Virus record (IMG/VR): IMGVR_UViG_3300025424_000026 | Location: 1-33,466 of that record | Source: a virus | Direction: 5' to 3' (one strand) | Length of the DNA: 33,466 nucleotides | Shown here: positions 452 to 33,466 of the stretch, in pieces | How positions within the stretch are numbered: position 1 is the first letter of the stretch | How the letters are laid out: every line of letters starts with the position of its first letter | The notes under the pieces: model-generated | What the model was told of the DNA's origin: nothing | Seen by the model: only the letters and a program-made list of their open reading frames with translations | Database searches by the model: none | Translations under genes and position numbers: made by a program

Positions 452-479
452 TTGACTTGTGACAAATGATTAGTATAAT
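452..479 (+). promoter_or_regulatory. sigma70-like promoter of the homing endonuclease
   Basis: TTGACT at 452-457 and a perfect TATAAT at 474-479 are separated by 16 bp. A further TTGACA lies at 442-447. Transcription would start near 486, downstream of the ATG at 466, so translation must begin at the ATG at 505, which has a GAGAAAG-type ribosome-binding site 8-10 nt upstream. This promoter looks host-type rather than late-type, as expected for a self-contained mobile gene. Confidence 0.65.
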
Positions 480-504
480 TGTAACAACTAGAGAAAGATT
501 CCAA

Positions 505-2526: not shown

Positions 2527-3729
2527 TTATAAGAATTTCAAATTCTGAGTGTTCAGCGCAATTCCTGCCAGGTAATCACCTGCATTTCCGAGGCTGGAAG
2601 AAGAATTTGATAATTCTATATAACCATATCTGGACATAAAGGAAACAACTGGCTCAAAGGTATTTGGATCAATTACGACGCCGCTGCTTGTTAGCGGAAT
2701 CCATGGGCAATAATACGCAGCCGCGTCAATCTCGCCAGCGCCCTTATAACCAACCAATACTGGTGTGTTATCAGCAGCATATTGGTCAACATAAACGCGC
2801 ATACTGTTGTTCAAAACGCCAACAAACTTTGTGTTAGTTGGTGCTTCAAAAGTACCTTCAGTTGTACGAGCAAAAGCTGAAGTTGTCGCTGATTGCAGGA
2901 CAGTTAGAGCAGTTGGGCTAACAACCACCCAGTTACCTGCGCCACGACGTGTACGTGCAGCAATCAAGTTAGCACCACGATTGATTAGAACCGCTAGAGC
3001 AGCGTGTTCGTCACCAACGTAGGTAGCTGTACCACTAACTGAACCTTGGTCATAAGTTAGTGTAGTACCAGCTAGGGTACGTAGGCTAACTAGGATTTCT
3101 TGGTCGATTTCAGCAGTAATTTCTTGTGCAAGTGCTGCCATGATTTCAGCTTCGATGTCGATGCCTTGTTGAGCTTGTGCATCTTGCACAGCTTCAAAGG
3201 TCCAACGGGCTGATAGACGGCGTGTCTTAGCTTCAACGGTTTCACGTAGAACTTGGATGTTCAAGCGCTTACCAGCAGTACCTTCCAGAACGCTAACAGG
3301 AGCAGCTTTTGGAGTTGTGCTGTTACCGTTACCAGAATAGTAACGTGCGATTTCGAATGGGCTAAGTGCTTCAGCGCCAGCTACTGTAGCAGTAGGTGAA
3401 CCAAAAGCGTCAGCATAACGAACGCGCAGTGTGTGGATTTGACCAACTGGACCGGTCATTGGTTGAACGCCGATGATTTCGTTGGCAATAACAGTTGGCA
3501 TAACTCGACGGATAACAGGCAGGATCACTTTGTTAAGTGTTGCGATGTTACCAGCGCCAGTTGCACCAGCTGTGGCAGATTCCATTAGCATACCAGCATT
3601 GCGAGTAGCCATGTCTTGTTTTGTATTTTCTAGGATTACTTCCATTACTCGCTTACGATTGCCGCTTAGGCCGTCGCAGAGAGCAGTTTTATAAGCACCC
3701 CATCGTGATTCGAAAAGATTTTGTTTCAT
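2527..3729 (-). CDS. 23: Major capsid protein, T4 gp23-like
   Basis: 400 aa, shorter than T4 gp23 (521 aa) and closer to reduced gp23 forms. The region VILPVIRRVMPTVIANEI followed by QPMTGPVGQI is the recognisable gp23 core signature near residues 68-96. It forms the hexamers of the head shell. The N-terminus carries LMES at residues 48-51, just before a Gly/Ala-rich stretch, which is where gp21 cleavage would be expected; the same tetrapeptide recurs in the DUF4116-like proteins. The start ATG at 3729 has AGGGAG about 8 nt upstream, inside the end of the scaffold gene, 3 bp away. Last gene of the head operon, followed by a terminator. Confidence 0.93.
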   Translation of the reverse strand: MKQNLFESRWGAYKTALCDGLSGNRKRVMEVILENTKQDMATRNAGMLMESATAGATGAGNIATLNKVILPVIRRVMPTVIANEIIGVQPMTGPVGQIHTLRVRYADAFGSPTATVAGAEALSPFEIARYYSGNGNSTTPKAAPVSVLEGTAGKRLNIQVLRETVEAKTRRLSARWTFEAVQDAQAQQGIDIEAEIMAALAQEITAEIDQEILVSLRTLAGTTLTYDQGSVSGTATYVGDEHAALAVLINRGANLIAARTRRGAGNWVVVSPTALTVLQSATTSAFARTTEGTFEAPTNTKFVGVLNNSMRVYVDQYAADNTPVLVGYKGAGEIDAAAYYCPWIPLTSSGVVIDPNTFEPVVSFMSRYGYIELSNSSSSLGNAGDYLAGIALNTQNLKFL

Positions 3730-3732
3730 CTT

Positions 3733-4956
3733 TTAATTCTCCCTAACTTGGTTGTTGAGTCCGGCCAAATGTAAAATTTCAGCAACTTCCTTTTGGATGT
3801 TCTGATCTTCGGTATTTGATTCTACCAGACGTTGTGAACGATTGCCTGTTGCAACTGTTCGAGTTTGAACATTTTCGATCAACTCACGAGGACCGGTGTT
3901 CGTTGCTGGACCGTTTACCACAGCCGGCAAATATCGATTGAATGCTTCTTTTAGATCACCTGTTCTGGTGTTCTTTAGCATTTCAACCATAATAGTTTTC
4001 TTTTCACGACTCAGCGGAGCAGTGAGTTCAGTTAATGTTTCCAATCTTCTTGCCTTGTCTCGTGCTTGAAGTTCTGCGTGTTTTGCTGATTCCACTAGTT
4101 GTGTTTTTTCAAGAACCTGTTGTTTAGCTTTGTTGATTTCTCGTTTTGATTCTTGTAGTTGCTTTTGCAGTTTCTTAATTTCACTGCCTTCGCTCAAATA
4201 GCTGGCCATATATTCGGCTGCTACTGCTTCGAATATTCTGCGTCCAAAGTTATTTTCTCTGGCTGCTCGAATATCTGATCTCCACTGAGTCAGTTCTTTG
4301 CGAATTACTTCGTTCAAAGTCTTGTCCAGCGTTTGTGTTGCACGTTGAATAAAGCTCTTTTGGCTTTCTTGGATTTTTTCACGACCCTCTGCCAACATTT
4401 TTACGCGTTGTTCAACTAGAGCTGTTTTTTCTGCTTCAAAAGCAGTTAGTTCTTCACTCAATTGTTGTAGAACAAAAGTTTCCAATTTGTTGATTTTTTC
4501 CGACATTTGGTTCTTTTGATTTGACTCCATGACTTGTAGTTTCTTGGACATATTTTTACGTTCAAGAACCAGTTGATTTCTGTCTTTGACAAAGCTGCCA
4601 ATTTCTGATTTCAATTGACGAACAACGAATTCATTTAAAATTGCTGTTTGTTTTCTGATTTTATTCTCATAGTGTCTTTTATTTTTGAGTGTTTCTTTAG
4701 TAAGTTTTACTCTTTGTTCACTTAGTGATCGCTTGTCTTTATGGAAATCTTCGACTTCCTTTTTAACAGCTTCACTCAGCATAGTATTCATTGCTTCTAC
4801 CAGTACTGCTTTGTCATGTTGATAACGTGCGGCATAGGTTTCTTGCAATTCAGTTTCTGCTTGTTTTACTTTTGAATCAAAAGCTTCTTGTAGTGCTAAC
4901 TTGACGTCTTCACCAAGTATTTCACTTTCAAGAAGTTCTGTTAATGCATTTTTCAT
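3733..4956 (-). CDS. 22: Prohead core scaffold protein, gp22-like
   Basis: 407 aa, very rich in Lys, Glu, Gln and heptad-like patterns over about residues 12-310, so almost entirely coiled coil. Its position between protease and capsid is that of T4 gp22, which forms the inner core of the prohead and is degraded by gp21 before packaging. Candidate gp21 sites are LLES (residues 8-11) and LVES (E379). The ATG overlaps the protease stop as ATGA, indicating translational coupling. Identity rests on synteny and composition; the sequence itself is low in family signature. Confidence 0.82.
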   Translation of the reverse strand: MKNALTELLESEILGEDVKLALQEAFDSKVKQAETELQETYAARYQHDKAVLVEAMNTMLSEAVKKEVEDFHKDKRSLSEQRVKLTKETLKNKRHYENKIRKQTAILNEFVVRQLKSEIGSFVKDRNQLVLERKNMSKKLQVMESNQKNQMSEKINKLETFVLQQLSEELTAFEAEKTALVEQRVKMLAEGREKIQESQKSFIQRATQTLDKTLNEVIRKELTQWRSDIRAARENNFGRRIFEAVAAEYMASYLSEGSEIKKLQKQLQESKREINKAKQQVLEKTQLVESAKHAELQARDKARRLETLTELTAPLSREKKTIMVEMLKNTRTGDLKEAFNRYLPAVVNGPATNTGPRELIENVQTRTVATGNRSQRLVESNTEDQNIQKEVAEILHLAGLNNQVREN

Positions 4957-5615
4957 CGGACATTACTCCTTTTTGTAAAGTTCAAATCTGTCACATAATT
5001 CAGCAAAATCCGTTTCAGGTGTCTTTGAGCGGCGTCATCGTACCTTGCGCATTCTGCTAAATTCAGTGCTTGTGTACCGTATTTACGACCCATCAGTGCT
5101 TCATATACCGGTACAGGATATGCGTTTGGTGCAGATGGGTTAGCCACTATATCAACTGTCAGCATGTCAAAATCACTGACATCACCTTGTGAATCAACAT
5201 TGCCTGAGCCACGAGAACTAACTCCCAGCTTGACACCACTTTCCAACAATGTTTTGATAATATTTCCTTTGGGGGTTGGCAAAATCTGCAACTTGCCCAT
5301 ACCATTTGAACCATCCATCCACATTTTGGTTATTTTGTGACTGACTCGATCCAAATGAATTTGTAGTTCTTGTGGATGATCACATTCACCCAAAACGCCA
5401 TTGTTTTTTTCAATAGCTTCGTTAATTGTGTTAACGGCTTGTTTTATTTCACTGACTGGATATACACGTCCGTTGTGGTTTCTTTGACCACCTTGAATGA
5501 ATATACCCTGCATATACATCTTTTTTTCTGATGTATCCTTGTCTGATTCAGTCAGAACTTCAGCCTGAGCATTGTCAAATGTCAGATGTTCAACTAGAAC
5601 AGTCGGGTGTTTCAT
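4953..5615 (-). CDS. 21: Prohead maturation protease, gp21-like
   Basis: 220 aa, a serine protease of the T4 gp21 type (herpesvirus assemblin-like fold). GRVYPVSEI near residues 49-57 is the family strand motif; CDHPQ gives the catalytic His80; GVSSRGSG gives the catalytic Ser (133 or 134). It cleaves scaffold, core and capsid proteins inside the prohead. LTES at residues 21-24 lies just before the folded domain and looks like a self-cleavage site; NLAEC near 190 could be a second. The mRNA leader has a late-type octamer (5645-5652) and AAGGA upstream of the ATG. Confidence 0.9.
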   Translation of the reverse strand: MKHPTVLVEHLTFDNAQAEVLTESDKDTSEKKMYMQGIFIQGGQRNHNGRVYPVSEIKQAVNTINEAIEKNNGVLGECDHPQELQIHLDRVSHKITKMWMDGSNGMGKLQILPTPKGNIIKTLLESGVKLGVSSRGSGNVDSQGDVSDFDMLTVDIVANPSAPNAYPVPVYEALMGRKYGTQALNLAECARYDDAAQRHLKRILLNYVTDLNFTKRSNVR

Positions 5616-5691: not shown

Positions 5692-6969
5692 TTATTTTCT
5701 ATGCCAAGTCAAATATTTGGCAGCTTTTGGGAGTGTATCATATATTGCTGCCGTAATTGTTGGTCCAGTACCTTTTGTAATATTGTTTAGTGTACATTCA
5801 AATTGATTTTGTATGGCCTCAATAGTTGCTGTAGCTGTTCTTTTGACCAAACCTTCTTTGTTACGTTCACGATCAAACAAATTGGTGTTTTGATTGAGTT
5901 CAAATTTAGCTTGATGTGGACTTGGGATCCAGTATTCAATTGTAAATTCACCTGACTTGAGTCGAGATTCGGTTAAGTTTTCTTGTCGTTCAATTTTTTC
6001 CAAATATTCTCGCGCGAGAATATCCAAGTCATTTCTATATTTCTTCAAAAGATTAATATCAGTTACTTCAATTGGTTCTATGAGATTGATAGCGTCTGGA
6101 TTTTGTTTACAGGCAGCAGTTTGAATCATGGGACTTGGTGAATGTATATGTGTAATTAAATAACCATTTTGTTGCACAGCCGTCAATTGAACGGGTATAG
6201 TTTTATTCAAACAAAATTCCAAGGCATCGGGATCATTTTTTACTGCGGCCATTTCTACATCAAGATCATCAGTGTCAAAAAACTCCAATAAACCACCATT
6301 TATAGAAACCAATTGCAATTGACATTCTTTGCTTAGCGGCAAATTCTCATGTATCAATCCTTCAGCATGCGTCCAAAAATTTGGATATATTCGATTTTGT
6401 TGGTAAAGATCATACATGGCATCTATCTTAGCCACTAAGTCTTGTTCTTTAGCAGACATGCCTGTATTTGATTCCATCAATTCGGTTTTTAATTTTTCTT
6501 CCCACCACTGTTTGAGACTTGAATCCAAATCTTCTGGTTTAATACCGCGCGGTTCTATTACATACTTTATTACGCCAATTGATTGAAAACATTTGACTGC
6601 GGCCCATTGAATCATGGGACTTGGTCGATCAATATATCGGATTACTTCTCCATTGAGTTTTACTGCTAATAATTGTAGTGGCAGAGTTTTATTTTCCACA
6701 TATACTATTGCAGCATGATCGTTTCTTATTGCCTGTTCAATAACTTGTTCATTATTAGTATCCAAGTCTCCCAATAATTGACCATCAATTTCCACAATTT
6801 GTTTTTGACATTCAATTGACAGTTTACCAAGATCTTCAATCAATTGCTTAGTACTTTCATAAAAAAGATACTTATTATTTTGATCAACAAAATATTTTTG
6901 ATAAAGGCTAGCAATTTGTTCTATTAATCGTTGTTCATCACGCGATAATCCCAAATTATTCGATTTCAT
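5692..6969 (-). CDS. DUF4116-like repeat protein C, probable internal head or core protein
   Basis: 425 aa. Two modules of about 165 residues share the pattern (V)QLxAVKxNGxxIxxI..PSPMIQxAA followed by a Lys/Tyr-rich helix; the repeat resembles DUF4116 helical repeats. The modules end in LMES (E166) and LTES (E334), which look like gp21 cleavage sites. The last 90 residues (GEFTIEYWIPSP onward) are a separate domain I do not recognise. The start ATG overlaps the end of the tail of the preceding gene; just upstream in this frame the DNA still reads SALMKSNN, matching the LMESN of the internal module boundary, so B and C were probably once one longer gene. No Shine-Dalgarno sequence is clear. 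A role as a packaged core protein is inferred from its place between portal and protease, where T4 has genes 67 and 68. Confidence 0.7.
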   Translation of the reverse strand: MKSNNLGLSRDEQRLIEQIASLYQKYFVDQNNKYLFYESTKQLIEDLGKLSIECQKQIVEIDGQLLGDLDTNNEQVIEQAIRNDHAAIVYVENKTLPLQLLAVKLNGEVIRYIDRPSPMIQWAAVKCFQSIGVIKYVIEPRGIKPEDLDSSLKQWWEEKLKTELMESNTGMSAKEQDLVAKIDAMYDLYQQNRIYPNFWTHAEGLIHENLPLSKECQLQLVSINGGLLEFFDTDDLDVEMAAVKNDPDALEFCLNKTIPVQLTAVQQNGYLITHIHSPSPMIQTAACKQNPDAINLIEPIEVTDINLLKKYRNDLDILAREYLEKIERQENLTESRLKSGEFTIEYWIPSPHQAKFELNQNTNLFDRERNKEGLVKRTATATIEAIQNQFECTLNNITKGTGPTITAAIYDTLPKAAKYLTWHRK

Positions 6970-7114
6970 CAGAGCGCTCCTGTTCTATTTTTTCCAAATA
7001 TTTCCGCATCTTTGAAGACAAAAATTTTCTATATTTCTTCATCAGACCAATATCAATTGCTTCAATCGGTCGAATAAATTGTATTGCTCTCGGATCTTGT
7101 TTTAGTGCTGCTGC
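6956..7114 (-). pseudogene. Cut-off in-frame tail of DUF4116-like protein B
   Basis: Downstream of the TAA at 7117-7115 the same frame stays open for 52 codons to a TAA at 6958-6956. It encodes AAALKQDPRAIQFIRPIE and then KKYRKFLSSKMRKYLEKIEQ, the exact conserved end of a module. The stop replaces a Gln codon (CAA) that the other copies have in PMIQxAA. Either a recent nonsense mutation, a read-through stop, or a sequence error. Confidence 0.75.
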
Positions 7115-9268
7115 TTAAACCATGGGACTTGGATTAATAATGTGCCATATTGCTTGGCCATTTTGTTGAACAGCCGCCAATTGAACTGGGATTGCCATTT
7201 TATCTCTAGGTATAAGAGACAATACTTCAACATTATTTTTAACTGCGGGTATGCAAATGTCCGGATCATCTTGGTTTAAATGTTCTAATGTCCATCCATT
7301 TATTGAAGCTATCTTTATTTGACAAGCTTTGGAAATAGGTTGCGCATCTTCTATTAATTGACCTACTCCAGATATCAATGAATATTTTGGTGGATCATGA
7401 GAGTATATTTCCGTTATCTTATCTACTAATGATTGTTCTTTGGGATTTAATTGAGTCATAGTTTCACTATTGGTTGATTCTTCAAGAAACTCCGCCGGCA
7501 TCAAGTCATTGTTTATCAAAAAGTCTCGATATTTTTCACGAATCGTAGGATCCAGTTTTTTGATGTTCATACAAAATAACACTGATCGATTTGCAGATAC
7601 CGCAGCCCATTGTACTAATGGAGCGGGATCTTTGATATAATCAATCATGTAATCCGCTTGTTGAACAGCCCATATTTGAAGTGGGATTGAAATTGGGAAT
7701 TTTTCAGCAAATAATTCAAAACAGCCGGGTTCTATTTTGATAATAGCTTTTATTAGACTTTCACTAGCTGAATCCAAGCGCTTGACCAGTCGTCGAATTT
7801 CATTCACTTCCGTTGTATAATCATTACCTGTTTTGATTCGTTCTGCTCGTTTACTGATATAATCCAATATCTGTTGATCAGTCCAAGTATTGGGATCCAG
7901 CGAATTATATTTTTTTGATTCCACGAACAGTCGGCGAGTAAATTGTTCTTTAGCCCAGTTATTGTAATATGTTTTGACATCCGCTATCACTGATTGCCTG
8001 GGATTTATTTCCCAGATTGCGTTATAGTTATTTTTTACCGCAGTCCATTGTATCATGGGAAGTGGATTATAAATTGTACTAATGACTAATCCATTGTTTT
8101 GCACAGCAGTTAGTTGGACCCCAATACTAGGTGTTTTGCAATAATAAAGCAAACTTGGATTTATTTTAACTAATTCTAATTGTAAATATTCACTCAAATC
8201 AGAACTAGCCATTATTCCATCAAATATGACGGCATCTCGACTATCATTATCACCAGTTTTATAGATTTCTTTTGCAAAATCAATAATATCACTTTCTGGC
8301 CAGGTGTCATCATTGAATGAGTTTGCCCATCTACCTTTAAATAGTCCCATTGTAAAATAACCATCGACTATAAAATATGATTCAGTTAGGGTGGTTTGTT
8401 TTTCTAGTTGTTCCAAATATTTCAGTCTTTCAGGAGTTAATTCAGATCTATATTTTTTCAAAAGATTAATATCCACTGATTCTATAGGTTTAATTGAATT
8501 GATTGCGCGAGGATTTTCTCGGCATGCGGCTGCTTGAATCAAGGGACTTGGTTCCCATATATTAATGATTACGGCACCATTTCTTTTAACGGCTTCTAAC
8601 TGCACCAATATACTTATTTCATTAAAACAATCAATTAGATAAGGGTCTAATTTTACAACAAATAGTTGAACTCGCTCACTTAAGTGGTCTGCATTACAGA
8701 GTGCATCAGTTAAAATATTATCCGTATTGTCGAAATTACGCTTTATAAATTCAATCTGTTCATCTTCATCAAGGTCATCAAGGTCTATTTGGTCATCACC
8801 ATAGTGTTCTAGACTTTCAAATATATTTGACTCAACTATAAATTTTCGATAACCCGGATTTTTATCAGCCCATTTATTGTATTCTTTTGCAAGTTCAGGC
8901 AATACACATGTAATAGGTCTAATATTCCATATTGATAATGGATCATTTTTGAACGCCGCCCACTGAATCATAGGAAGTGGGTTTTGAATTGCATCAATAT
9001 CAGACCCATTATTTTTTACTGCTGTCAATTGAACTTTTATGGTGGGATTCTTGAGACAACTAAAAAGCTCTCCACCGTCTATATTTATTAAAGCAAGTTG
9101 GACATCTTCACTCCATTCTTGACTTGCAATAATATTACGCACGTCCAGAAGATCCCAATTGCGTATCACATAATCAATTTTTTTATCGACCGGCAATGAT
9201 TTGAAATGGTTACACCGTTTTTCAAAAATTTTTGATTCCACTATTTTTTTGTGATTACTGAGTTTCAT
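7115..9268 (-). CDS. DUF4116-like repeat protein B (polyprotein-like, ends at a premature stop)
   Basis: 717 aa from the ATG at 9268 (a TTG one codon upstream is the alternative). It holds about five modules of roughly 135-155 residues, each with a QLxAVxxNGxxI..I.NPxPMIQWAA core. Module borders carry IVES (E11), IVES (E146), LTES (E296), FVES (E450) and LEES (E597). The even spacing and the repeated x-E-S suggest a string of domains released by the prohead protease encoded three genes downstream. The start overlaps the stop of gene A by 1 nt (TGATG). The last module is cut by a TAA where sister modules have CAA. No enzymatic motif is seen. Function unknown; internal head protein or head core is my inference. 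Confidence 0.7.
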   Translation of the reverse strand: MKLSNHKKIVESKIFEKRCNHFKSLPVDKKIDYVIRNWDLLDVRNIIASQEWSEDVQLALINIDGGELFSCLKNPTIKVQLTAVKNNGSDIDAIQNPLPMIQWAAFKNDPLSIWNIRPITCVLPELAKEYNKWADKNPGYRKFIVESNIFESLEHYGDDQIDLDDLDEDEQIEFIKRNFDNTDNILTDALCNADHLSERVQLFVVKLDPYLIDCFNEISILVQLEAVKRNGAVIINIWEPSPLIQAAACRENPRAINSIKPIESVDINLLKKYRSELTPERLKYLEQLEKQTTLTESYFIVDGYFTMGLFKGRWANSFNDDTWPESDIIDFAKEIYKTGDNDSRDAVIFDGIMASSDLSEYLQLELVKINPSLLYYCKTPSIGVQLTAVQNNGLVISTIYNPLPMIQWTAVKNNYNAIWEINPRQSVIADVKTYYNNWAKEQFTRRLFVESKKYNSLDPNTWTDQQILDYISKRAERIKTGNDYTTEVNEIRRLVKRLDSASESLIKAIIKIEPGCFELFAEKFPISIPLQIWAVQQADYMIDYIKDPAPLVQWAAVSANRSVLFCMNIKKLDPTIREKYRDFLINNDLMPAEFLEESTNSETMTQLNPKEQSLVDKITEIYSHDPPKYSLISGVGQLIEDAQPISKACQIKIASINGWTLEHLNQDDPDICIPAVKNNVEVLSLIPRDKMAIPVQLAAVQQNGQAIWHIINPSPMV

Positions 9269-10812
9269 CAATCAGTCCTGTAAAATGTAGGTTTTCTACT
9301 AGTAGGATGTTTAGAAGCCCACTCATTATATGCATCAATAATTTCAGGTAGTACACAAGATTGAGGATATATGTCCCAGATTACTGATTTGGATTTTTGG
9401 AAAGCTGCCCACTGTATCATAGATGCGGGATTTTCTATCATCAAAATACTACCCGGTTTTGATTTAACTGCCGCTAATTGAAATATTAAACTCCAAGGTT
9501 TTTCAAAACATCCCAAAAAGTTACCATTAATCGCAAGTATTTTTAATATGACTGCTTCACTTAAATCAGAGTCCATAATTACATCATCTAACATATGGTC
9601 TGGTTCATCATCTTGATGCAGTTTGACATATTCTACTTGCTGTTCTTCTGTCAAACCATTTAATGTTCTTCTAGGCGTGTTTAGATCCACTGATTCCATT
9701 AGGCTTTCTTGCTGTTCTATTTTTTCCAAATAAGCCAATTGTTCCGATCTCAAATAGTCTCTGTATTTCTTCAATAGTGATATGTCAATTGATTCAATAG
9801 GACTGATACAATTTATTGCATCTGGATTATTACTGCATGCAACACTCTGCACTAATGGAGTTGGATTTTTTATTTGTAATATAGTTTTACCATTATTATT
9901 TACGGCCATAAGTTGCCATTTGATTGAATTTGGTCTCGATATAATATCAGTAAGTGCATATGAGCATTTAGATAAGGCTATTTTAACTAATTCTTCAGTA
10001 AGGCCACTTATATATGGAATCGTATAGGGTTCTTTTTCAATAATCCTTTTTTTAAATTCATAACATGGATGTTTGATTATTTTTATTAGGCCAAATATAG
10101 CCTTGCTTGAATTGCTTGACTTCACAGCCGCTAATTGCAATTCATCTGATGGGTCTGGCATCCATTCAATCGCTAGTGGGAATTTTTTTACAGTAGCTAG
10201 TTTAACTTTTTCACTTGGATTAATACCAGAATCAATTAATTGTCTATATCCTAATTTATTACTGGTAGCATATAAAATCTGTTGTTCATCAGTTTCTAAT
10301 TGCTGCTTATTTACCATGGAATTATTAGTAATAGGTGAAATTGATAAATTTAATTTGATAAAATCGATTTGTTCAGTTATCGTCTTTCTTAGAAATTCAC
10401 TGGGTCTTATTTCTACCAGCTTTTTACCATCTGGTGATAATAATTTAGCAATATTTGTATCTACGAGACTTGGCGGACTGAATTTATTCCAGACCATGAT
10501 AGGAGAAACTGAAACAAAAGAAATTGATTGTCTACCCTGTGACGGGAATTCAATAGCAGCCAAATATTCAAAAGGATAACCAAACTGAGTCAATAAATGT
10601 TGAAAAGCGTTAAACGTTGATTGCTGTACTGGAGTAAATGTATAATCTTCTGGCTGACCACTCCAATATATAGACTGCGGATCACCCGGTTTCCTATTTC
10701 TCAACAGGGGATTTCCCACATTACCAGGCAATTTCTTCATCGCATCATATTCGTCTTTAGTATATGATCGATAAGTATTGTTTTCCAATAAGGTAATAAG
10801 CCGAGATGTCAT
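9268..10812 (-). CDS. DUF4116-like repeat protein A, probable internal head or core protein
   Basis: 514 aa. The first 170 residues are unique (SYTKDEYDAM and FEYLAAIEFPSQGRQSIS), perhaps a small separate domain. The rest is DUF4116-like repeat, with PTPLVQSVAC, KKYRDYLRSEQLAYLEKIE and then LMES (E373), and a last module ending near PASMIQWAAF. LLEN at residues 8-11 could be a processed N-terminal leader. A late-type octamer sits exactly 4 nt before the ATG and AAGGG abuts the ATG, too close to act as a normal ribosome-binding site. First of three tandem repeat genes following the portal. Confidence 0.7.
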   Translation of the reverse strand: MTSRLITLLENNTYRSYTKDEYDAMKKLPGNVGNPLLRNRKPGDPQSIYWSGQPEDYTFTPVQQSTFNAFQHLLTQFGYPFEYLAAIEFPSQGRQSISFVSVSPIMVWNKFSPPSLVDTNIAKLLSPDGKKLVEIRPSEFLRKTITEQIDFIKLNLSISPITNNSMVNKQQLETDEQQILYATSNKLGYRQLIDSGINPSEKVKLATVKKFPLAIEWMPDPSDELQLAAVKSSNSSKAIFGLIKIIKHPCYEFKKRIIEKEPYTIPYISGLTEELVKIALSKCSYALTDIISRPNSIKWQLMAVNNNGKTILQIKNPTPLVQSVACSNNPDAINCISPIESIDISLLKKYRDYLRSEQLAYLEKIEQQESLMESVDLNTPRRTLNGLTEEQQVEYVKLHQDDEPDHMLDDVIMDSDLSEAVILKILAINGNFLGCFEKPWSLIFQLAAVKSKPGSILMIENPASMIQWAAFQKSKSVIWDIYPQSCVLPEIIDAYNEWASKHPTSRKPTFYRTD

Positions 10813-10826: not shown

Positions 10827-12605
10827 TTATAGACCTTCCAAGCCAGTTCCATTGGTTGCTGAGTTTTGCACTTCTGTTGAAGCCGGTGTATTTTCTTCTG
10901 CTTGTGGCGCGACTTCAGTGGGTTCGGCCCCAGGTGCACCAAAATCACCACCCATATCAAATCCACCAGCTTGTGGTTTAACTCCCACTGAACTCAATCC
11001 CAATTGGTTGGAATCAATTGGTGATTGTCCAGTCTGTGATTTCAACCTGCTGGCATTTTCTTCTTTCCACATACGTTCGTTTTCCAAGATGTCTTCATCA
11101 GTCCATCCCAGATATTTCTTTAGAGCATACCGTTGACTCATGAATCGATTTGCATTAGTTGACATAATACTACTATAGATATTAATACGTTCAGAATCCA
11201 ATTGTATTTGTCGATATTCACTGAAACTTTGTGGTGGCCACATCTGTAGACTAAAATCACTACTGGATATTTCAATACCACGGTTCTTCAAAAACATTTT
11301 AAATTCGTGATCTAGGATCGGAGTAAAATTATTTTGTAGTCGAGCACAATACTTACTGAATCGAAACTCTTGTATGTATGCCGTACCAACTTTACCATCA
11401 TTGAATGTTGCGGTGCCATCATCTGGCCCAGTTGGCAAATAACTACTGGGAATTCCAAGTCCTCTGAACAACTTGTTCTGGAAAAATTTCAAATCATCTA
11501 TTGAACCCAAATTCTCCCCACCTGGCAGTGGCTCAATAGTCGTACCTTTGCCTTCTGAATCAGTTGCAAGGAAAAAATTGTCTGTTATTGAAATTGGTGA
11601 ATAGGATGCATCCACCGCCGATCTCCCATTTGATGTCTGTGAAGGGATTCTACGTTGATATATTTCCTGCTTAACTCTCTCTACGAACTGTTGAGCACGC
11701 GGTCCACTCAGCCCACCAACGTCAATTTTAAATACTAGTCGTTCAGGTGCTCGAACGATTCTATATATAATGACTGCATCTTCCAACAAATCCTTTTGTT
11801 TGAAGATTTTAAAAACATTTTCTAATATACTTGTTCCAAATGGCCACTGGCCATCCAGTCCTTCACTCAAACTAAAATGAACCACGTGCACTGCATCAAC
11901 AGCGAAATTACTAGCTTGACTCATAAAACGGCTATTGCGGCTTGACTGACTATGGATTCCCATGCTAACTGCACCTGCTCCAAGTCCAGTATTTGCATTA
12001 CGAGGAACACCACTGGGGAAAGTATAGGCATCATGCACCAACATGTTGGATCCAACTTGTGATATCAAATTGAGATCCAAGTCACTTACCACATATTGTT
12101 CAATCTTCTTGCCTTTGGATTCATTGACAATAATTTTTTCTACTTTGTTGGGGTCAACCCAAATAAGCTGACATGTTTCAGGATCGCGTATGAAAAATTG
12201 ATCACCATATTTTAAGGTGTTTCTAAATGTTCTCCAAACACGTTTTTTCCAGTCGTTGATTTTAGCCCACTGAGTTAGGGCTTCTTTGAGTATTTTAATC
12301 TCTGTTTCAGTTAAGTTATCACCATATAATATGGTAAATGGCTCATCATCAATTTCGAATGTTTGAGTAGAAAAATCTGCAATAATATCAAGTGCTCGAT
12401 TCACATCAGAATCATTATCCATTTGTTCGTACTGCATATAGCGTTCAATTCGATTTGCTGAGCCACTATATACTTCAGGCAGTGGGCTACCATATTTGTC
12501 CATGGACGTAGCTGATCCATTTGCTGTTGTTTGTTTTTTCTCTAAACGTTTTTGAACTTCTGCTGCTGTGGGAACAGCTGAAAAATATTTTTGCCAACGA
12601 GCCAT
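10827..12605 (-). CDS. 20: Portal protein, gp20-like
   Basis: 592 aa, near the length of T4 gp20 (524 aa). Typical portal features: SANRIERYMQYEQMDNDSDVNRALDIIADF near residues 49-78, then WVDPNKVEKI, the stretch EDAVIIYRIVRAPERLVFKIDVG (about 280-302), and the clip/stem region GKGTTIEPLPGGENLGSIDDLKFFQNKLFRGLGIP. It forms the dodecameric ring at the head vertex through which DNA passes. The C-terminal 60 residues are low-complexity Gly/Pro/Ala/Glu. AGGAA lies 6 nt before the ATG, with a late-type octamer about 25 nt upstream. Confidence 0.92.
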   Translation of the reverse strand: MARWQKYFSAVPTAAEVQKRLEKKQTTANGSATSMDKYGSPLPEVYSGSANRIERYMQYEQMDNDSDVNRALDIIADFSTQTFEIDDEPFTILYGDNLTETEIKILKEALTQWAKINDWKKRVWRTFRNTLKYGDQFFIRDPETCQLIWVDPNKVEKIIVNESKGKKIEQYVVSDLDLNLISQVGSNMLVHDAYTFPSGVPRNANTGLGAGAVSMGIHSQSSRNSRFMSQASNFAVDAVHVVHFSLSEGLDGQWPFGTSILENVFKIFKQKDLLEDAVIIYRIVRAPERLVFKIDVGGLSGPRAQQFVERVKQEIYQRRIPSQTSNGRSAVDASYSPISITDNFFLATDSEGKGTTIEPLPGGENLGSIDDLKFFQNKLFRGLGIPSSYLPTGPDDGTATFNDGKVGTAYIQEFRFSKYCARLQNNFTPILDHEFKMFLKNRGIEISSSDFSLQMWPPQSFSEYRQIQLDSERINIYSSIMSTNANRFMSQRYALKKYLGWTDEDILENERMWKEENASRLKSQTGQSPIDSNQLGLSSVGVKPQAGGFDMGGDFGAPGAEPTEVAPQAEENTPASTEVQNSATNGTGLEGL

Positions 12606-12654: not shown

Positions 12655-15060
12655 TCAATATATTTGATTTCCAGATTTCTTTAGTTGACTGATCATGTCA
12701 CCATGTCCTCGAGCCGTAACATTCGCAAGTATATTTACGGCGGTTTCTACTTGTCCCAACAATTCTATTTGTCTTTGATTAGCTTTTTGTACTGCTACAT
12801 AATGTTCCAGAGTTTTCTTTATTACTACATCCATGGTATTTGCCGGGCCGGTAGTAGTCGTTGTTCCCGGGGTAGCAACTGCTTTTCCTTCAGTCATCAT
12901 ACCCGCTAAGCCCAATCCACCACTCAGTAAACCAAGTGGCACTCCAGCAACTGCACCAATTCCAGTAGAGTCCAGACCAGTTGCAAGTAGACCAGTTGCT
13001 GCACCTGCTCCATATAGTCCAGCACTCAACCAATTGCCTTTTTGTGCTTGGCTTGCTGCACCCGCTATATCTAATGCGGCCCCTACGCCTGGTATGAAAC
13101 GTCCCAAAGTTTTACCAAACAGTTTGCCACCACCTTTGGCAGCTACTTGTGCAGCTTCTTCACCGGCTGGATTGGAAATTAATCCTGCTATATTTTTTAT
13201 TGCATTACCGCCTGCGCCAATAATGCCTTTAGCAAGTAATGCACCCCCACCCAATACACCAATATCACGGGCACCTCGGCCAGCAATAGCACCAACCTTT
13301 TTAATATTATCAGCACCAATTAAATTTTTAACATAATCTATAAAATCTGTAAAAATTTTACCAATTGTTTTTAGAGGACTGCCAATTTTCGTATCCCATT
13401 CATCTACAGATTTTGAAATCCAATTACCAAACTTGCCCAATTGTTCCCCAACCCATCCCAATCCTTTTCCAGCAAGATCAATAACTTTTGATAGGTCATG
13501 CAGGGTTGCAGCAACTTGTCCCAGGCCTGATCCCAAAGCATCCATGGCCGGAATTAAAATTGGAATCAAATTCAACAGCAATCTATCGAATGAAGCTGAC
13601 AATTTGTTCATTTGAATTTTCAATTTTTCTTGTACTCGAATAGCTTCTTTTTGTTCAGTACTCATTAAGGTACCATCAGCATTACGACCTTCCAAGGCAT
13701 TTCTACTGGCCTGTGTCAAAGCAACCAGTTGACGAGCTGAATCACCCACTGGCCCACTCATACCAGCAAATGCTTGTAGCCTAGCCAATGCTTCAGGATT
13801 GGCGATAGCTTTGGCCAATTTTCTAGTAGCTTCAGTGGTGTCACCACCTGCTTTGGCAATATCACCCAGCTCACGGAAAGCATCAAATGCCCCTGCTTGA
13901 TTTAGTACCATGGTCATTTCGGGACCAACCCCTGCCAGTCCACGACTTATATAACCACCAAGTGCATTGTCTATCTGAGTATGTTGTGTACCAAACGTTT
14001 TGGCAATCTCAGGAAGTACTTTGGTAATCATATTTTCACGAACCGCTCCGGGCAATCCAGCTAGAGCAATTTGCATGTCTGCATTATTATATGATGAATT
14101 GATCTGTTTTTCCAATTCACGTCGATTCATACCTGTTACTTCAGCAACTTGGTTTAATTCCTGCAAATATTTGTTGGTACTAACTACCAGTTGACTATCT
14201 GATTTACCACGCATATCACCTGTTAACCGAAGTGTTTCCAAATAATCCAATTGTGCATCACGAGCTTCTTCATTGGTCATAAACAGCTCAGAACCCATTT
14301 TTGTTAATTTGCTAAAAGCATTTCCCAATTCAACTGTGCGTTGAATGCCTAGATAAGCAGTGGCAGCAGAATGCTGAGTGAGTTCTTTATTAAGTTCTTC
14401 TGATTTCAAACCCGAAGCGTAAAGCATGTCTGTATATTGAGTTAAGCCTAGACTAAATCCCTGTCCCACTTCATCCAAAGACAGCAAACTTTTTGATATC
14501 TGCACAAAACGATGTTCCACCATTTCCACAGTTTTTTCCAATACCTCAAACCCAATAGCTAGTTCAGTACCCTCTAATGCCAGCGTTCCCAAATTACCAA
14601 TGACAGATGATATAGCGTTACCCGCTGACGCAGATCCACCCACTAATCCCAACGTGTATGAAGACATTGCTTTTCTGAATGCAGCCGATTGTCGTTTTGC
14701 CGCATCTGCATTTTTACCAGTGGCATCTGCTTCTTCTTTGGCTTCCTGCTCTTTGGTTTTTTTCCAACCGTCTTTGGCTTTTGCTTCAGCGCTACTTGCA
14801 TTAGCAGCATCCTTAGCAGCTTTGGTTGATAGATTTAAAGCTGCTTCAAATTCCTGAACAGCCTTTTTACCACCATCCCCTCGTTCCACATATTTTTTGA
14901 ACGCAGATAGTAATATTTGTCCATTGGTGTTTGTTTTACTAACCAGATCCTTTAGAGTCTTTTCAGTTGCCCAGTCAATGCGATCTTTATTGACAATCTT
15001 AATAGGCAGTGGATTGGAATCTTTGATTGCTTTACCATCGGCTGTTGTAATATCAGTCAT
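12655..15060 (-). CDS. Probable tail tape measure protein
   Basis: 801 aa. An N-terminal Ala/Lys/Glu coiled coil (about residues 70-130) is followed by a long helical middle, a hydrophobic stretch near residues 490-540 (LLLNLIPILIPAMDALGSGLG) and a Gly/Ala-rich membrane-active C-terminal third (GGGALLAKGIIGAGGN and similar). That layout is typical of tape measure proteins, which set tail length and line the tube. By the usual rule of about 0.15 nm per residue, 801 residues would fit a tail of about 120 nm. T4 gp29 is shorter (590 aa). It starts back to back with the gp26-like gene, in keeping with tail genes. No clear Shine-Dalgarno sequence precedes the ATG. It could instead be another large tail component. 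Confidence 0.65.
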   Translation of the reverse strand: MTDITTADGKAIKDSNPLPIKIVNKDRIDWATEKTLKDLVSKTNTNGQILLSAFKKYVERGDGGKKAVQEFEAALNLSTKAAKDAANASSAEAKAKDGWKKTKEQEAKEEADATGKNADAAKRQSAAFRKAMSSYTLGLVGGSASAGNAISSVIGNLGTLALEGTELAIGFEVLEKTVEMVEHRFVQISKSLLSLDEVGQGFSLGLTQYTDMLYASGLKSEELNKELTQHSAATAYLGIQRTVELGNAFSKLTKMGSELFMTNEEARDAQLDYLETLRLTGDMRGKSDSQLVVSTNKYLQELNQVAEVTGMNRRELEKQINSSYNNADMQIALAGLPGAVRENMITKVLPEIAKTFGTQHTQIDNALGGYISRGLAGVGPEMTMVLNQAGAFDAFRELGDIAKAGGDTTEATRKLAKAIANPEALARLQAFAGMSGPVGDSARQLVALTQASRNALEGRNADGTLMSTEQKEAIRVQEKLKIQMNKLSASFDRLLLNLIPILIPAMDALGSGLGQVAATLHDLSKVIDLAGKGLGWVGEQLGKFGNWISKSVDEWDTKIGSPLKTIGKIFTDFIDYVKNLIGADNIKKVGAIAGRGARDIGVLGGGALLAKGIIGAGGNAIKNIAGLISNPAGEEAAQVAAKGGGKLFGKTLGRFIPGVGAALDIAGAASQAQKGNWLSAGLYGAGAATGLLATGLDSTGIGAVAGVPLGLLSGGLGLAGMMTEGKAVATPGTTTTTGPANTMDVVIKKTLEHYVAVQKANQRQIELLGQVETAVNILANVTARGHGDMISQLKKSGNQIY

Positions 15061-17369: not shown

Positions 17370-17478
17370 TGGTGCCTTTTTTCCTAAGATGTCCGGGTAA
17401 TTATTCCGTCAACATTAGTAGTATAGGCATCTATTTAATCAATCGCAAAATAAAAAAATATTTTTTCAAATAAAAATG

Positions 17479-17486
17479 TATAAATA
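17479..17486 (+). promoter_or_regulatory. Consensus late promoter TATAAATA, 4 nt before the ATG
   Basis: An exact T4 late consensus, followed by TTTG and the ATG at 17491. It overlaps the upstream ATG at 17476, so that ATG cannot be on the transcript and the start at 17491 is preferred. Nothing like a Shine-Dalgarno sequence lies upstream of either ATG. Confidence 0.65.
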
Positions 17487-17490
17487 TTTG

Positions 17491-17970
17491 ATGAAACTTA
17501 TCGATCTATTTGAATCCAAGCTGGATACGCTCTATGTATCACGTCCACTACTTAATGCTGAAGAAGTCTGGGAATGGGCTAGAAAAAATGGTTGTAAGAC
17601 ACCACTTGACCCAGAAGACATGCATGTAACGATTGCGCATTCAAAAACTCCGGTTGATTGGCTACTTATCCGACCAAAGAAGAAAGAACTGGTCATACCA
17701 GAATCTGATGATAGAAAACTACTAGCATTCGGTGAAGAAGAAACGACTATCGTTTTGTCATTCGAATCAGAAAAACTAGAAGATCGTTGGTTAGAAATTT
17801 GTTCACTGGGAGCCAAGTGGGATTTTCCGGAATACATTCCGCATGTTTCAATTACTTATAATTCCAAGTGGTCAAACTGGGAAGACGTGACGCCCTATGC
17901 TGGAGAACTTGTTTTGGGTCCAGAAAAGTTTGAACCATTTGTTGATAATTGGTCAGAAGATAAAAACTGA
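17491..17970 (+). CDS. Anti-CBASS phosphodiesterase, Acb1-like (2H family)
   Basis: 159 aa from the ATG at 17491. The two 2H motifs are HVTIAHS (about residue 45) and HVSITY (about 120), and flanking blocks LYVSRPLLNAEEVWEWA, WDFPEYIPH and LVLGPEKFEP are those of phage Acb1-type proteins. Acb1 cleaves the cyclic nucleotides that activate CBASS effectors and so blocks abortive infection. The N-terminus MKLIDLFES precedes the conserved domain and resembles a capsid-targeting leader ending in a gp21-type site (LFE/S); if so, the protein could be packaged and injected. Its 3' end overlaps the convergent nuclease gene by 76 bp. A general 2H RNA ligase/phosphodiesterase is the alternative. Confidence 0.75.
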   Translation: MKLIDLFESKLDTLYVSRPLLNAEEVWEWARKNGCKTPLDPEDMHVTIAHSKTPVDWLLIRPKKKELVIPESDDRKLLAFGEEETTIVLSFESEKLEDRWLEICSLGAKWDFPEYIPHVSITYNSKWSNWEDVTPYAGELVLGPEKFEPFVDNWSEDKN

Positions 17971-29557: not shown

Positions 29558-32125
29558 TCAACCAGTCGACTGGTCTTGCACTCTGTATTTCCGTTGTTCT
29601 GTCAATAAATATTTGAAAAACTTGGTGCGTTTCAAAGCCTTAAATGCTAAATTCCATGGCGTATATTCAACACCTTTAGATTTATCTAATACTGTGGCTC
29701 TAAGTGAAAGTATCTGTTTGTAAGCTTTGACTGCATTATTCACCGCCTTGCGTTTATCACCAGTTTTAGTTAGCATATAATCATATGCATTCTGTAATTT
29801 GGTGTAAAATTCAGTAAAGTGTTTTTTTATTTCAGGCATATCGACATCTGATTTATGTGGTGGATTAGGGATACTCTCCCATTTGCCATGCATTATAGAA
29901 TAAACTGCATCTGAAGAATGTTTTTCATTCCACTGCCGAATGAAAAATTCAACAGGATGCCCGGCAACATTATAGTGATTTTCTTTAGTAAACGCAATCC
30001 GTTTGTTATCCAGTTCTTTAGCAATGCTTGAATTTTCAGGAGGCAATTTGTCAACTAAAATATGAATGTCTACATCTGAATCTTTATGATAAATGTAATT
30101 GGCCATAGAACCTTTGAATTGAATATCATGCACTCTAAACTTATTAATTTCCATTGCAGCAATAAATGTATTAGTCCATTTCACCAAATCATTATGTACG
30201 TTCGGTAATAAATGATTGTCTTTATCCCATATTGCGGGATGTAAATGTTCGTTATATGGATATAGATCTGTCAAAAACTTGTCTACCCATCCAAGTGGTT
30301 TTGCTTTTACTTCTTCTTCAGAATTGAATTCATTCAGTTGCGGTTTGTTCCACTTGTCAGTGGTGTTGATAGGGATTCTCAAGTTTAACTCTTTAATTTT
30401 ATCAATTGCATTCGCTCCAGCAAATGTATTTTCATTAATGGTTTTTATGATTTGGTCTCTGCTTATACCAGCTTTGAACATGTCATTAATATCTTTTAAA
30501 TTTTCAATTGACATCGTTTGGTTATTTACGGTTATTGACTTTGGCCAAATGCATACTTTATAATTTTCTCGTATAGCTTGTAATAACTTTTCAAGTGTAC
30601 TTTTTTTATCTGGTTCATTATCATAGACTATAACTAATTGTGATTGGCGTATATTTTTTGATTGCATAATAGCAGGCAAGTCACTAGTGATACTTTCCCC
30701 GCCGCCCATTGCAATAGCCCGGCCTTTCAGAATCATTGAATCAAATTCCCCTTCCAGTACATAAATGGTCTTGGACAAATCAACGTCATCCAAACCAAAC
30801 GCCTTGACAGCTTTGGTGGTATTATCTTTTTTGTTAATTGAAACAGTTTTATTAGTGAAATTTAATGGTATTTCTACATATTTGATACCATCTGGTCGTT
30901 TAAGTTTATCATCATTTAAATCCAAGTTCCTACATTTCAAATGAGTAACAATTGAATTTTCTCCAAACATGCCCTTTTCTTTTGATATAGTGGGTATAAT
31001 AATAAATGCGCCATTTCTAGGTAGTCGTTTTCTACCTCCCATATATTCCGGTAAATTTTCATTTACCCAATCATTTATATGATCTACATAGAAGCATAAA
31101 TTAAATGCATTTTTAGGCAATCTTCTAGTAGAAAGATATTTGACTGCTGGGTGATTGGGATTTGTGTCTTTTAATTGCTGTAAGCTTGGCGCTAACTTGC
31201 GTAGTTTACTTAACGTAAGTACTGGTGGCTTCGATACATTGATAAATTCATTCAATGATGAATTCGCTACAATTTGTTGAGTAATTTCAGAACAAAATCC
31301 TCGGTTTTCTGCGACTTGCTTCATGGTAATTAAACTTTCTATTTTTCTGTTAATTTTTCGGATTGCAGATAATAAATCTATTTCTTCATAGCCATTTTCC
31401 CAATCCAATATGACTTCAATAGGCATTGTAGATGTTTTTCCCAAGCCTTTTAAAATTTTTATTAATGATCGTAATGCAGGACGTTTATATTCATATAATT
31501 CAACCGCTATCGTTTCATTTGTTTCAACTGCGACTCGGATACACCCAATGCTCAATAAAAATCCATTGATGTCTTTATCATAAGCAATGATTAAATTATG
31601 CTTCTTGATTAATTCTCGCCCAATATCTTGATGTTTTTCGAAAGGTACTGGTTCTATTTCACCAGTCATCATTATCCAATATCCATATTCAGTGGTTGGA
31701 ATAGAATCAGCTTCTAATATTGGTTGGTAATGTGTATTTGATGTTGGTTTTTTATTATGTTGTAGAAACTCAGTTAATATGTGTATTGCGTCTTCACAAT
31801 CAGTTTTAAATGTAAATTCATTTTCCATATGTATGGTAACATGCTTGGGTAAGTTGGTTTTTATCAAGTCAATTAATTTTTTGATTGCACGATCATTTTT
31901 AATTCTTAATACTGCTATGAGTCTTCGATTTTCTATGCTATAATCAAATTTAATGAATCCCATATTCAATGCAGAATCAGATCCATGTTCAAAATCAAAA
32001 ATTTTTTTAGCAGCTTCATCATGTGATGAGTTTCCCAGATGATATAGATTACCGAGATTATCTATCCACCCACCCGGGTGAGTCAATAACTCTGTTGTCA
32101 CATATTCAAATAATTCACGCGTCAT
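29558..32125 (-). CDS. Toprim (primase-like) and nucleotidyltransferase fusion
   Basis: 855 aa. Residues 1-130 and 145-260 look like two diverged copies of one module (G-Y/W-hydrophobic opening, then an A--LI-IK helix), joined by ILEA, a possible gp21-type site. Residues 305-450 resemble the front half of a DnaG-like catalytic core. Residues 452-550 are Toprim: VLEGEFDS (E458, E460), VYDNEPD (D502) and KDINDMFKAG. Residues 660-800 are a nucleotidyltransferase: KGSMANYIYHKDSDVDIHI with G672-S673 and D684/D686. No zinc-binding domain is seen. A late octamer 4 nt before the ATG implies late expression, odd for a primase. Convergent with the M15 gene, 9 bp apart; a 14-bp palindrome lies at 29561-29574 within its last codons. 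Confidence 0.65.
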   Translation of the reverse strand: MTRELFEYVTTELLTHPGGWIDNLGNLYHLGNSSHDEAAKKIFDFEHGSDSALNMGFIKFDYSIENRRLIAVLRIKNDRAIKKLIDLIKTNLPKHVTIHMENEFTFKTDCEDAIHILTEFLQHNKKPTSNTHYQPILEADSIPTTEYGYWIMMTGEIEPVPFEKHQDIGRELIKKHNLIIAYDKDINGFLLSIGCIRVAVETNETIAVELYEYKRPALRSLIKILKGLGKTSTMPIEVILDWENGYEEIDLLSAIRKINRKIESLITMKQVAENRGFCSEITQQIVANSSLNEFINVSKPPVLTLSKLRKLAPSLQQLKDTNPNHPAVKYLSTRRLPKNAFNLCFYVDHINDWVNENLPEYMGGRKRLPRNGAFIIIPTISKEKGMFGENSIVTHLKCRNLDLNDDKLKRPDGIKYVEIPLNFTNKTVSINKKDNTTKAVKAFGLDDVDLSKTIYVLEGEFDSMILKGRAIAMGGGESITSDLPAIMQSKNIRQSQLVIVYDNEPDKKSTLEKLLQAIRENYKVCIWPKSITVNNQTMSIENLKDINDMFKAGISRDQIIKTINENTFAGANAIDKIKELNLRIPINTTDKWNKPQLNEFNSEEEVKAKPLGWVDKFLTDLYPYNEHLHPAIWDKDNHLLPNVHNDLVKWTNTFIAAMEINKFRVHDIQFKGSMANYIYHKDSDVDIHILVDKLPPENSSIAKELDNKRIAFTKENHYNVAGHPVEFFIRQWNEKHSSDAVYSIMHGKWESIPNPPHKSDVDMPEIKKHFTEFYTKLQNAYDYMLTKTGDKRKAVNNAVKAYKQILSLRATVLDKSKGVEYTPWNLAFKALKRTKFFKYLLTEQRKYRVQDQSTG

Positions 32126-32211: not shown

Positions 32212-32607
32212 TTATTTCCCTTGCTGAACAATATAATGTTCAATAACTGATTTGTCAACTACTCCAACAGAACTAATAAAACTACTTCTATTCCAAAAAG
32301 TGCGTCGTTTCCAAAAATGCTGAGCTAATTCAAATTCATAATTATTCCATAACTCATAAGCAGTTTTCTGTTTAATTACTCGTACTATTTGACTTGGACT
32401 AATATCCGGTCTGGCAAATACTAATAAATGAATGTGATCCTGTTCCGATTCCATTTTATCTACTTGAAATTTATGATTATTTGATAAATCAAGAATCGTT
32501 TGCTTGATAAATGAATCATATTGATGCATTAACTTCTTCCTGTATTTTACGGTTAATATTATATGGTAATATAATGAATAAACCGAATTTGCTGTTTTTT
32601 GATACAT
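32212..32607 (-). CDS. tnpA: Y1 (HUH) transposase TnpA
   Basis: 131 aa, a normal length for the family. The HUH motif is DHIHLLV near residue 57-63; the catalytic Tyr is in IEHYIVQQ near residue 124. LYYHIILTVKYRKK at the N-terminus is the family's first strand. It cuts and joins single-stranded ends at hairpins. AGG lies about 9 nt before the ATG. All key residues seem intact. Confidence 0.92.
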   Translation of the reverse strand: MYQKTANSVYSLYYHIILTVKYRKKLMHQYDSFIKQTILDLSNNHKFQVDKMESEQDHIHLLVFARPDISPSQIVRVIKQKTAYELWNNYEFELAQHFWKRRTFWNRSSFISSVGVVDKSVIEHYIVQQGK

Positions 32608-32644
32608 ATTAGTGCCTAATTAAATTTCTTTGCTAAATATATTT

Positions 32645-33466
32645 ATGCAGAAAATATCAGCATACAAAATTCGATTGAATCCAACTACCGATCAAATACA
32701 AACTTTGATTGGTTGGCAAGGTCAATTGCGGTTTATCTGGAATAAATTGCTGGAAATCAATATTCACAAATACAATTCTGAAAAGAAGTTTGAATTCCGT
32801 TATGATATGAAAAAAAGACTACCCGCTTTGAAAAAGGAATTTGAATGGCTCAATGCACCAGCGCATGCATTTCAAAATTGTGTATTTGATTTAGATAGAG
32901 CAATTGTGGATTGTTTTAAACGCGGCAAGGGCTTTCCGCATTACAAAAACAAACACACCGCTAATCCATCTATAGAAATAAGTCAAACCAATACAAAACA
33001 CATCAAGTGGTGGTCTGATAAAATACAAATCCCCATAATTGGTAAAATCAAATGGACGTATCATAGGAAAATTAAAGGTCGTCTGCTATCTGCTACAATT
33101 AAACGAGATGGCGATCAGTGGTATGTTTGTATGCTAACAGAACAAGAAGGCAATGAACAACAAACAAATTTTGTTGAATCAGACTGTGTCGGTATTGATT
33201 TGGGATTGACAGACTTCGCTATTACAAGCGATAGCGAGGTATTTGAAACTCCAAAGTTTTATAGAAAGAAGCAAAAGAAATTAAAACGTGCACAACAAAA
33301 ACTGTCACGAAAAGAAAAAGCAAGTCGAAATCGGGAGAAACAAAAGAAGAAAGTAGCACGTATACACCAAAAGATAAGATTCCAAAGAAGTAATTTTCAT
33401 CATCAATTAAGTAGCGCGATAACCAAACGATACCCAGTTGTATTTGTTGAAAATTTGAATATCAAG
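32645..33466 (+). CDS. tnpB: TnpB RNA-guided nuclease, N-terminal 274 residues (runs off the window)
   Basis: Starts ATG CAG AAA at 32645 and stays open to the window edge. The opening KISAYKIRLNPTTDQIQTL is the usual TnpB start; GIDLGLTDFA supplies the RuvC-I Asp, a Lys/Arg-rich helix follows, and VVFVENLNI supplies the RuvC-II Glu. The zinc finger and RuvC-III would lie outside. TnpB is guided by an RNA from the element's right end to cut the empty site and so keep the element. No Shine-Dalgarno sequence is seen before the ATG. Confidence 0.9.
   Translation, partial: MQKISAYKIRLNPTTDQIQTLIGWQGQLRFIWNKLLEINIHKYNSEKKFEFRYDMKKRLPALKKEFEWLNAPAHAFQNCVFDLDRAIVDCFKRGKGFPHYKNKHTANPSIEISQTNTKHIKWWSDKIQIPIIGKIKWTYHRKIKGRLLSATIKRDGDQWYVCMLTEQEGNEQQTNFVESDCVGIDLGLTDFAITSDSEVFETPKFYRKKQKKLKRAQQKLSRKEKASRNREKQKKKVARIHQKIRFQRSNFHHQLSSAITKRYPVVFVENLNIK

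Follow-up and report, generated by a model that had tools for sequence, protein, structure and literature searches.

Gene context

The stretch of DNA analysed here in its entirety, called the window, spans the 33,466 bases of an IMG/VR virus record that is probably a fragment. Its minus strand encodes, in this order, a protein of 801 amino acids (aa) of unknown family, the portal protein gp20, three tandem genes designated A, B, and C, a prohead protease of the S77 family, a scaffold-like protein, and the capsid protein gp23. The preliminary description had recognized three tandem genes with module repeats, and these indeed lie between the portal and protease genes. The features of this block are listed below; Phi stands for L, I, V, M, or F, and an arrow marks the putative cut after Glu.

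10827..12605, minus strand: portal protein gp20 (PF07230, E = 1.2e-102)
9268..10812, minus strand: gene A, 514 aa; leader MTSRLITLLE↓N, a specific N-terminal part of about 180 residues, a DUF4116-like module ending in LME373↓S, and a last module without a site
7115..9268, minus strand: gene B, 717 aa from ATG; leader MKLSNHKKIVE11↓S; borders at E146, E296, E450, and E597; DUF4116 (PF13475, E = 1.6e-7)
6956..7114, minus strand: continuation of the B frame after its stop, module-like up to the next stop and overlapping the start of C
5692..6969, minus strand: gene C, 425 aa; two modules (LME166↓S, LTE334↓S) and a C-terminal domain of 91 residues; no leader; DUF4116 (PF13475, E = 8.6e-13)
4953..5615, minus strand: prohead core protease of the T4 gp21 type (Peptidase_S77; PF03420, E = 1.7e-25; phrog_207, head maturation protease, 1.6e-60)
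3733..4956, minus strand: scaffold-like protein (phrog_10922) with six PhixES sites
2527..3729, minus strand: major capsid protein gp23 (PF07068, E = 8.6e-95)

Among isolates, the portal protein matches those of large T4-superfamily phages (PA5oct, Atu_ph07, 121Q, SCTP-2, and others). Close relatives of the window are two IMG/VR contigs from a single sample, G001 (39 kb) and G002 (140 kb), with a DNA identity of about 83-93% in most aligned stretches; across the protease, scaffold, and capsid genes, the window and its sister contigs share 94.6%. Since the end of G001 falls within gene B and that of G002 lies 53 bases past the protease start codon, both contigs are probably pieces of one genome, with the break near gene C. 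The 801-aa protein upstream of the portal gene (12655-15060, minus strand) has no match in Pfam or PHROGs, and its counterpart in G001 is a 799-aa ORF at the same place. On the opposite strand, a homing/HNH endonuclease-like gene (466-2388, plus strand; phrog_3339, 2.8e-88) adjoins the capsid gene, and G002 has a similar ORF in the corresponding position. The window ends (32212-33466) with a pair of ORFs that resemble, by eye, an IS200/IS605 transposase and a TnpB-like protein.

Gene B is terminated by an in-frame TAA (7117-7115, minus strand) within its last module, beyond which the frame remains open and module-like to 6956 and overlaps the start of C, which is encoded in another frame. This stop, read in this record alone since no relative covers the position of the TAA, may be real, a polymorphism, or an error, and the interrupted B together with the open frame overlapping C possibly represents a split polyprotein.

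Modules bordered by PhixE↓S

Together, A, B, and C comprise about nine modules of 135-185 residues each, most of which end in (L/I/V/M/F)xE↓S. If cut at this motif, the modules align with one another around VQLxAV...NPxPMIQWAA...P, and the linkers between them are hardly alignable except for PhixE↓S itself. All sites that had been listed in the preliminary description are present (E373 in A; E11, E146, E296, E450, and E597 in B; E166 and E334 in C), and two more were noted: IFES at E151 of B, which lies beside a border, and FYES at E38 of C, which is off any border. The residue at P1' is variable (S, A, T, or H). In the terminal module, the C-terminal helix is kept and the site residues are replaced, as seen by comparing NEWASKHPTSRKPTFYRTD at the end of A with NKWADKNPGYRKFIVE, followed by S, inside B. 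The modules are mostly acidic, with net charges ranging from +2 to -15 in the window.

In A, B, and C combined, (L/I/V/M/F)xES occurs 10 times, compared to 2.3 times in shuffled proteins (P = 5e-5). The positions of the sites were analysed in ten polyproteins (A, B, and C of the window, one from G001, three from G002, and three from other contigs) with a total of 35 PhixES sites, 26 of which are located in linkers, 30-70 residues after the NPxPMIQ anchor, and none within the 3,094 residues of module cores. Random placement yielded a mean of 6.2 and a maximum of 16 linker sites in 20,000 placements. In the same ten polyproteins, PhixDS, PhixKS, and PhixQS showed no linker enrichment and, therefore, both the Glu at P1 and the hydrophobic residue at P3 matter.

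The borders were then counted with a wider motif, PhixE followed by S, T, A, or H, and with the G001 copy of B added to the set. An internal anchor was followed by a site in 31 out of 32 cases, and the single exception is a spurious second anchor inside one module, leaving 31 of 31 genuine borders, a count that overstates independence, since the polyproteins are partly homologous and the borders are not independent events. None of the seven C-terminal modules contained this motif. Across all proteins of the sister contigs, N-terminal PhixES was enriched only about 2.7-fold (10 seen, about 4 expected); therefore, the case rests on the border test. The existence of module chains bordered by PhixE↓S is confirmed. 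Furthermore, gene A of G001 (L088) encodes 958 aa with five modules, compared to two in the window, and all of its borders carry PhixE↓S. Because five modules occupy the same region in G001, a comparison of the sequences indicates that modules have been added or dropped among close relatives while the borders stayed intact.

Predicted structures of the modules

A single module modelled with AlphaFold2 (25 relatives) is predicted to be alpha-helical and solenoid-like, with a core pLDDT of 95-99. The confidence is lower at the N-terminal end, which corresponds to IVE↓S, and LTE↓S is found at the end of the last helix. For full-length B, a pLDDT below 50 was obtained for residues 1-7, 141-159, 292-311, 315-321, and 594-604, segments that contain or adjoin E11, E146/E151, E296, and E597; E450 has a pLDDT of about 59 and is placed in a predicted helix. 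Structure prediction of single modules had been proposed beforehand as a check, with sites buried inside the repeats counting against cleavage, and in these models the sites lie outside the folded cores. Searching the PDB for the fold of the module returned nothing with an E below 0.8, and the nearest predicted viral structures in BFVD were DUF4116 proteins.

Relationship to DUF4116

The earlier view of A, B, and C as DUF4116-like polyproteins holds for B and C, which score 31.2 and 48.1 bits against the Pfam gathering cut-off of 24.9, but not at this threshold for A (13 bits, E = 0.079), although the modules of A align with those of B and C despite this score. DUF4116 had been predicted to form an alpha-solenoid (PMC8078820). 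The Pfam matches of B and C and the structural neighbours thus link the modules to DUF4116 (PF13475); however, the typical family member from bacteria, like many from phages, is an uninterrupted row of short repeats that lacks both leaders and PhixE↓S borders, and many phage members are bare repeats. The bacterial controls comprised 44 DUF4116 loci retrieved with a closer alignment, and bacterial DUF4116 proteins are poor in PhixES (5 seen, 11.8 expected; 21 proteins, 7,316 residues). PhixE↓S is not a property of DUF4116 as such.

DUF4116 was also considered as a mark of head proteins and was rejected in this role: a leader-like PhixE at residues 5-16 is present in 40 of 82 nonredundant phage DUF4116 proteins and in 212 of 747 others, and some of the 40 hits are merely N-terminal repeat sequence. 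When gene B was compared to annotated phages by tblastn, a single weak match was found, to Salicola phage SCTP-2, whose DUF4116 gene 45 also starts with a PhixE↓S leader. Genes 48, 46, 45, and 37 of SCTP-2 (L084:1673-6714 and 11612-12517) are paralogues that start like MKVKHITQYLFE or MKIKHITQYLFE, each followed by S, and have a GKNTKWCT-type domain. These paralogues, with gene 45 containing DUF4116 repeats, constitute a candidate head-packaged family in a cultivated phage.

Putative protease sites and leaders

The prohead protease of T4, gp21, cleaves after L/I-x-E (PMC9026906), and a gp21-type protease with a presumably matching site specificity is present in the same genome as A, B, and C (PF03420; capsid E7/E50). 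Among the gp23 proteins of 52 relatives, E7 is kept in 50 and its P3 residue is L throughout; E50 is kept in 52 of 52, with S, N, T, or A at P1'. The scaffold contains six PhixES sites (0.75 expected), and the S77 protease itself carries LTE23↓S and LLE125↓S. The recurrence of the same x-E-S elsewhere in the head genes, as initially reported for E50 of the capsid, LLES and LVES of the scaffold, and LTES of the protease, could be reproduced in full. Judging from these sequences, the capsid and scaffold sites support cutting of PhixE↓S by the phage protease, and the S77 protease (4953..5615) is the presumed cutter. With a motif that matches the capsid and scaffold sites and predicted structures that leave the sites outside the cores, the proposal that prohead-protease-like sites punctuate the modules has gained support. 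No S77 protease was found on the contigs of L090 and L095, both of which are fragments, and the enzyme is thus not seen next to these polyproteins. An S77 search of DUF4116-bearing contigs did not separate carriers from non-carriers, because most of these contigs are fragments.

Capsid targeting in T4 needs only a 10-residue leader (PMC7411985), and the first 10 residues of internal protein III suffice for packaging and are then removed by gp21 (PMC9026906). By analogy, the N-terminal leaders of A and B, which are 10-11 residues long and end in LLE↓N and IVE↓S, are like T4 capsid-targeting sequences; C has no T4-type leader and starts with MKSNNLGLSRDEQ. DUF4116 polyproteins on other contigs have the leaders MKILDLIE↓D, MRLIDLFE↓S, and MASRLVDLLWE↓S. 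In G002, five proteins whose bodies look unrelated share a leader of the form xEIRK...LxE, followed by S, T, or G (L099-L106; e.g., G002:39459, 59370, 72500, 92980, and 132242), which is possibly a family of capsid-targeting leaders.

Unrelated modules behind the same border

The border is not confined to DUF4116-like modules. A second tandem family is represented by G002:132242-133498, which has the leader LFE↓G, two SDQMTPADREAML modules with LSE↓S before each, and a third site, ISE↓SDQ. In the window, two further genes are of interest:

17476..17970, plus strand: Acb1 anti-CBASS protein (PF23474, E = 1e-35 over residues 18-161); leader M(YKYL)MKLIDLFE↓S
29558..32125, minus strand: second multidomain candidate, 855 aa; leader MTRELFE; two GYWI-type domains joined via ILE↓A; weak nucleotidyltransferase match near the C terminus

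The leader of Acb1 is nearly identical to that of the DUF4116 protein of L095 (MRLIDLFE↓S), and relatives encode 739-aa fusion proteins in which Acb1 follows other domains after an internal VME↓A or VME↓S. In unrelated phages of Rhizobium and Synechococcus, Acb1 is C-terminal in a protein that is annotated as the portal or positioned like it. These arrangements suggest that Acb1 is delivered in the virion. The homologue of the 855-aa protein in G001 (G001:12113-15229) has the same leader and two GYWI-type domains, with GYWI following ISE↓S. The C-terminal halves of the two proteins differ, with the weak nucleotidyltransferase match in the window and a GH19 chitinase/lysozyme domain in G001, an apparent swap of cargo. 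Furthermore, a 1548-aa protein encoded behind the capsid gene of G002 (L105/L106, G002:127565-132211) combines DUF4116 modules with GYWI-type domains, and its borders are PhixE with S, A, T, H, or N at P1'. At the level of sequence, the border is independent of the fold of the module, as exemplified by the second tandem family, the GYWI domains, and Acb1.

Interpretation of the module chains

Sequence and structural models make it likely that A, B, and probably C encode capsid-targeted head cargo polyproteins that are cut by the gp21-type protease of the phage. A and B would enter the prohead core via their 10-11-residue leader, a functional equivalent of the T4 capsid-targeting sequence. As the head matures, the S77 protease would cut after Glu in (L/I/V/F/M)xE↓S (or A or T at P1'), which would remove the leader and free alpha-helical DUF4116-type modules of 15-18 kDa. 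The freed modules would remain in the head alongside the DNA and would most likely accompany it into the host as a group of related binding proteins. We infer the cleavage, packaging, ejection, and binding function of the modules alike. Counterpoints to a role as cargo are the length of the motif, which comprises only three to four residues, the missing leader of C, the placement of E450 in a predicted helix, the stop within B in this record, the frequent lack of leader and sites in DUF4116 proteins of other phages, the contigs of L090 and L095 with no S77 protease found, and the mostly acidic nature of the modules, unlike that of DNA-binding internal proteins.

The main alternative, which we regard as unlikely, assigns the chains to the prohead core, with a role like that of T4 gp67, gp68, and gp22: they would help to size or fill the core and be cut, with the pieces removed instead of delivered. 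The acidic modules and the gene slot beside the protease are in line with this role, as is the fate of the T4 core proteins, which are cut into several pieces, most of which are lost from the head (PMC9026906); however, with no PhixES in the module cores, the products would be folded units of 15-18 kDa, and the same borders flank the anti-defence protein Acb1. The slot itself had been equated with that of T4 genes 67 and 68. A, B, and C are indeed positioned there, between the portal and protease genes, but they are not replacements of gp67/gp68: the sister genome has a separate gene for a gp67-like acidic core protein elsewhere (G002:116705-117670), which ruled out a replacement and also speaks against a core role, and no homology of A, B, and C to the gp67-like acidic core protein, or to T4 gp67/gp68, was seen. 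In the relatives L004, L005, L007, and L015, a gene for a gp67-like acidic protein precedes the protease gene, beside fibre-like or collagen-like genes.

It is less probable still that PhixES belongs merely to the repeat unit that is being duplicated, or to a flexible linker, and is no cleavage site. Duplication of modules can copy linkers along and short motifs can recur by chance, but PhixE↓S is kept in linkers that are otherwise hardly alignable, is common to unrelated module types, is missing from C-terminal modules, and is scarce in bacterial DUF4116 proteins. That A, B, and C act outside the head, as intracellular alpha-solenoid binding proteins of infection encoded by chance between the portal and protease genes, is very improbable: many DUF4116 proteins of phages, giant viruses, and bacteria have no leader or structural context, but A and B have leaders, the sites match those of capsid and scaffold, and the genes lie within the head block.

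The preferred reading, head cargo polyproteins, can be extended to a general cargo code, for which the balance is nearly even but tilts slightly towards doubt: any module after a PhixE↓S border, behind a leader or in a polyprotein, would be packed, cut free, and delivered with the DNA. DUF4116, GYWI, the second tandem family, the nucleotidyltransferase-like domain, and Acb1 would then be parts of one system, and close relatives would differ by the gain, loss, and exchange of modules.

Comparison with known systems and significance

The T4 internal proteins IPI-III and Alt have a leader that is cleaved by gp21, and the proteins are ejected into the host. They share with A and B a short N-terminal leader that ends in a gp21-type site, and in both cases an S77 protease and genes of the gp20-gp22-gp23 type are present in the block. 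However, IPI-III and Alt are single units after cleavage of the leader (Alt is also cleaved C-terminally), whereas here each chain contains several folded modules with internal sites. The polyvalent proteins of phages and conjugative elements are likewise multidomain proteins, have been proposed to be packaged and injected, and have been suggested to undergo processing (Iyer et al. 2017, PMC5512222). Their processing has been attributed to embedded, mostly zincin-like peptidase domains (PMC5512222); in contrast, the cutter here would be a separate prohead protease, and no peptidase match was found in A, B, and C in Pfam and PHROGs. Instead of domains of disparate activity, A, B, and C repeat one domain type; mixed domain types in one chain are found in the 855-aa protein (29558-32125) and the 1548-aa protein of G002.

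In phiKZ and SPN3US, inner-body and ejection proteins are cut by gp175 and gp245 at S/A-x-E or A-x-E (PMC5694885, PMC10052503). As far as the covered portions of these reports extend, the likeness lies in the extensive cutting of head-internal proteins after Glu, at a three-residue motif and at several sites within propeptides. In the same portions, it is propeptides that are removed, and a tandem release of several folded modules is not described.

In the open literature, with subscription journals largely outside this scope, we found no description of DUF4116 in phages or of polyproteins from which a prohead protease liberates several folded modules. Precedents exist for single leaders, for propeptides that are cut several times, and for polyvalent proteins. 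The mechanism proposed here would be a variation on the maturation of T4-type internal proteins. Polyproteins are a strategy familiar from RNA viruses. If the cargo reading is true, polyproteins processed by the capsid protease would be the way in which a tailed phage supplies its head with cargo, and this would provide a first role for DUF4116 modules in these phages. Moreover, a three-residue motif would then reveal, from the sequence alone, the proteins that are carried and delivered by a T4-type phage, among them anti-defence proteins such as Acb1.
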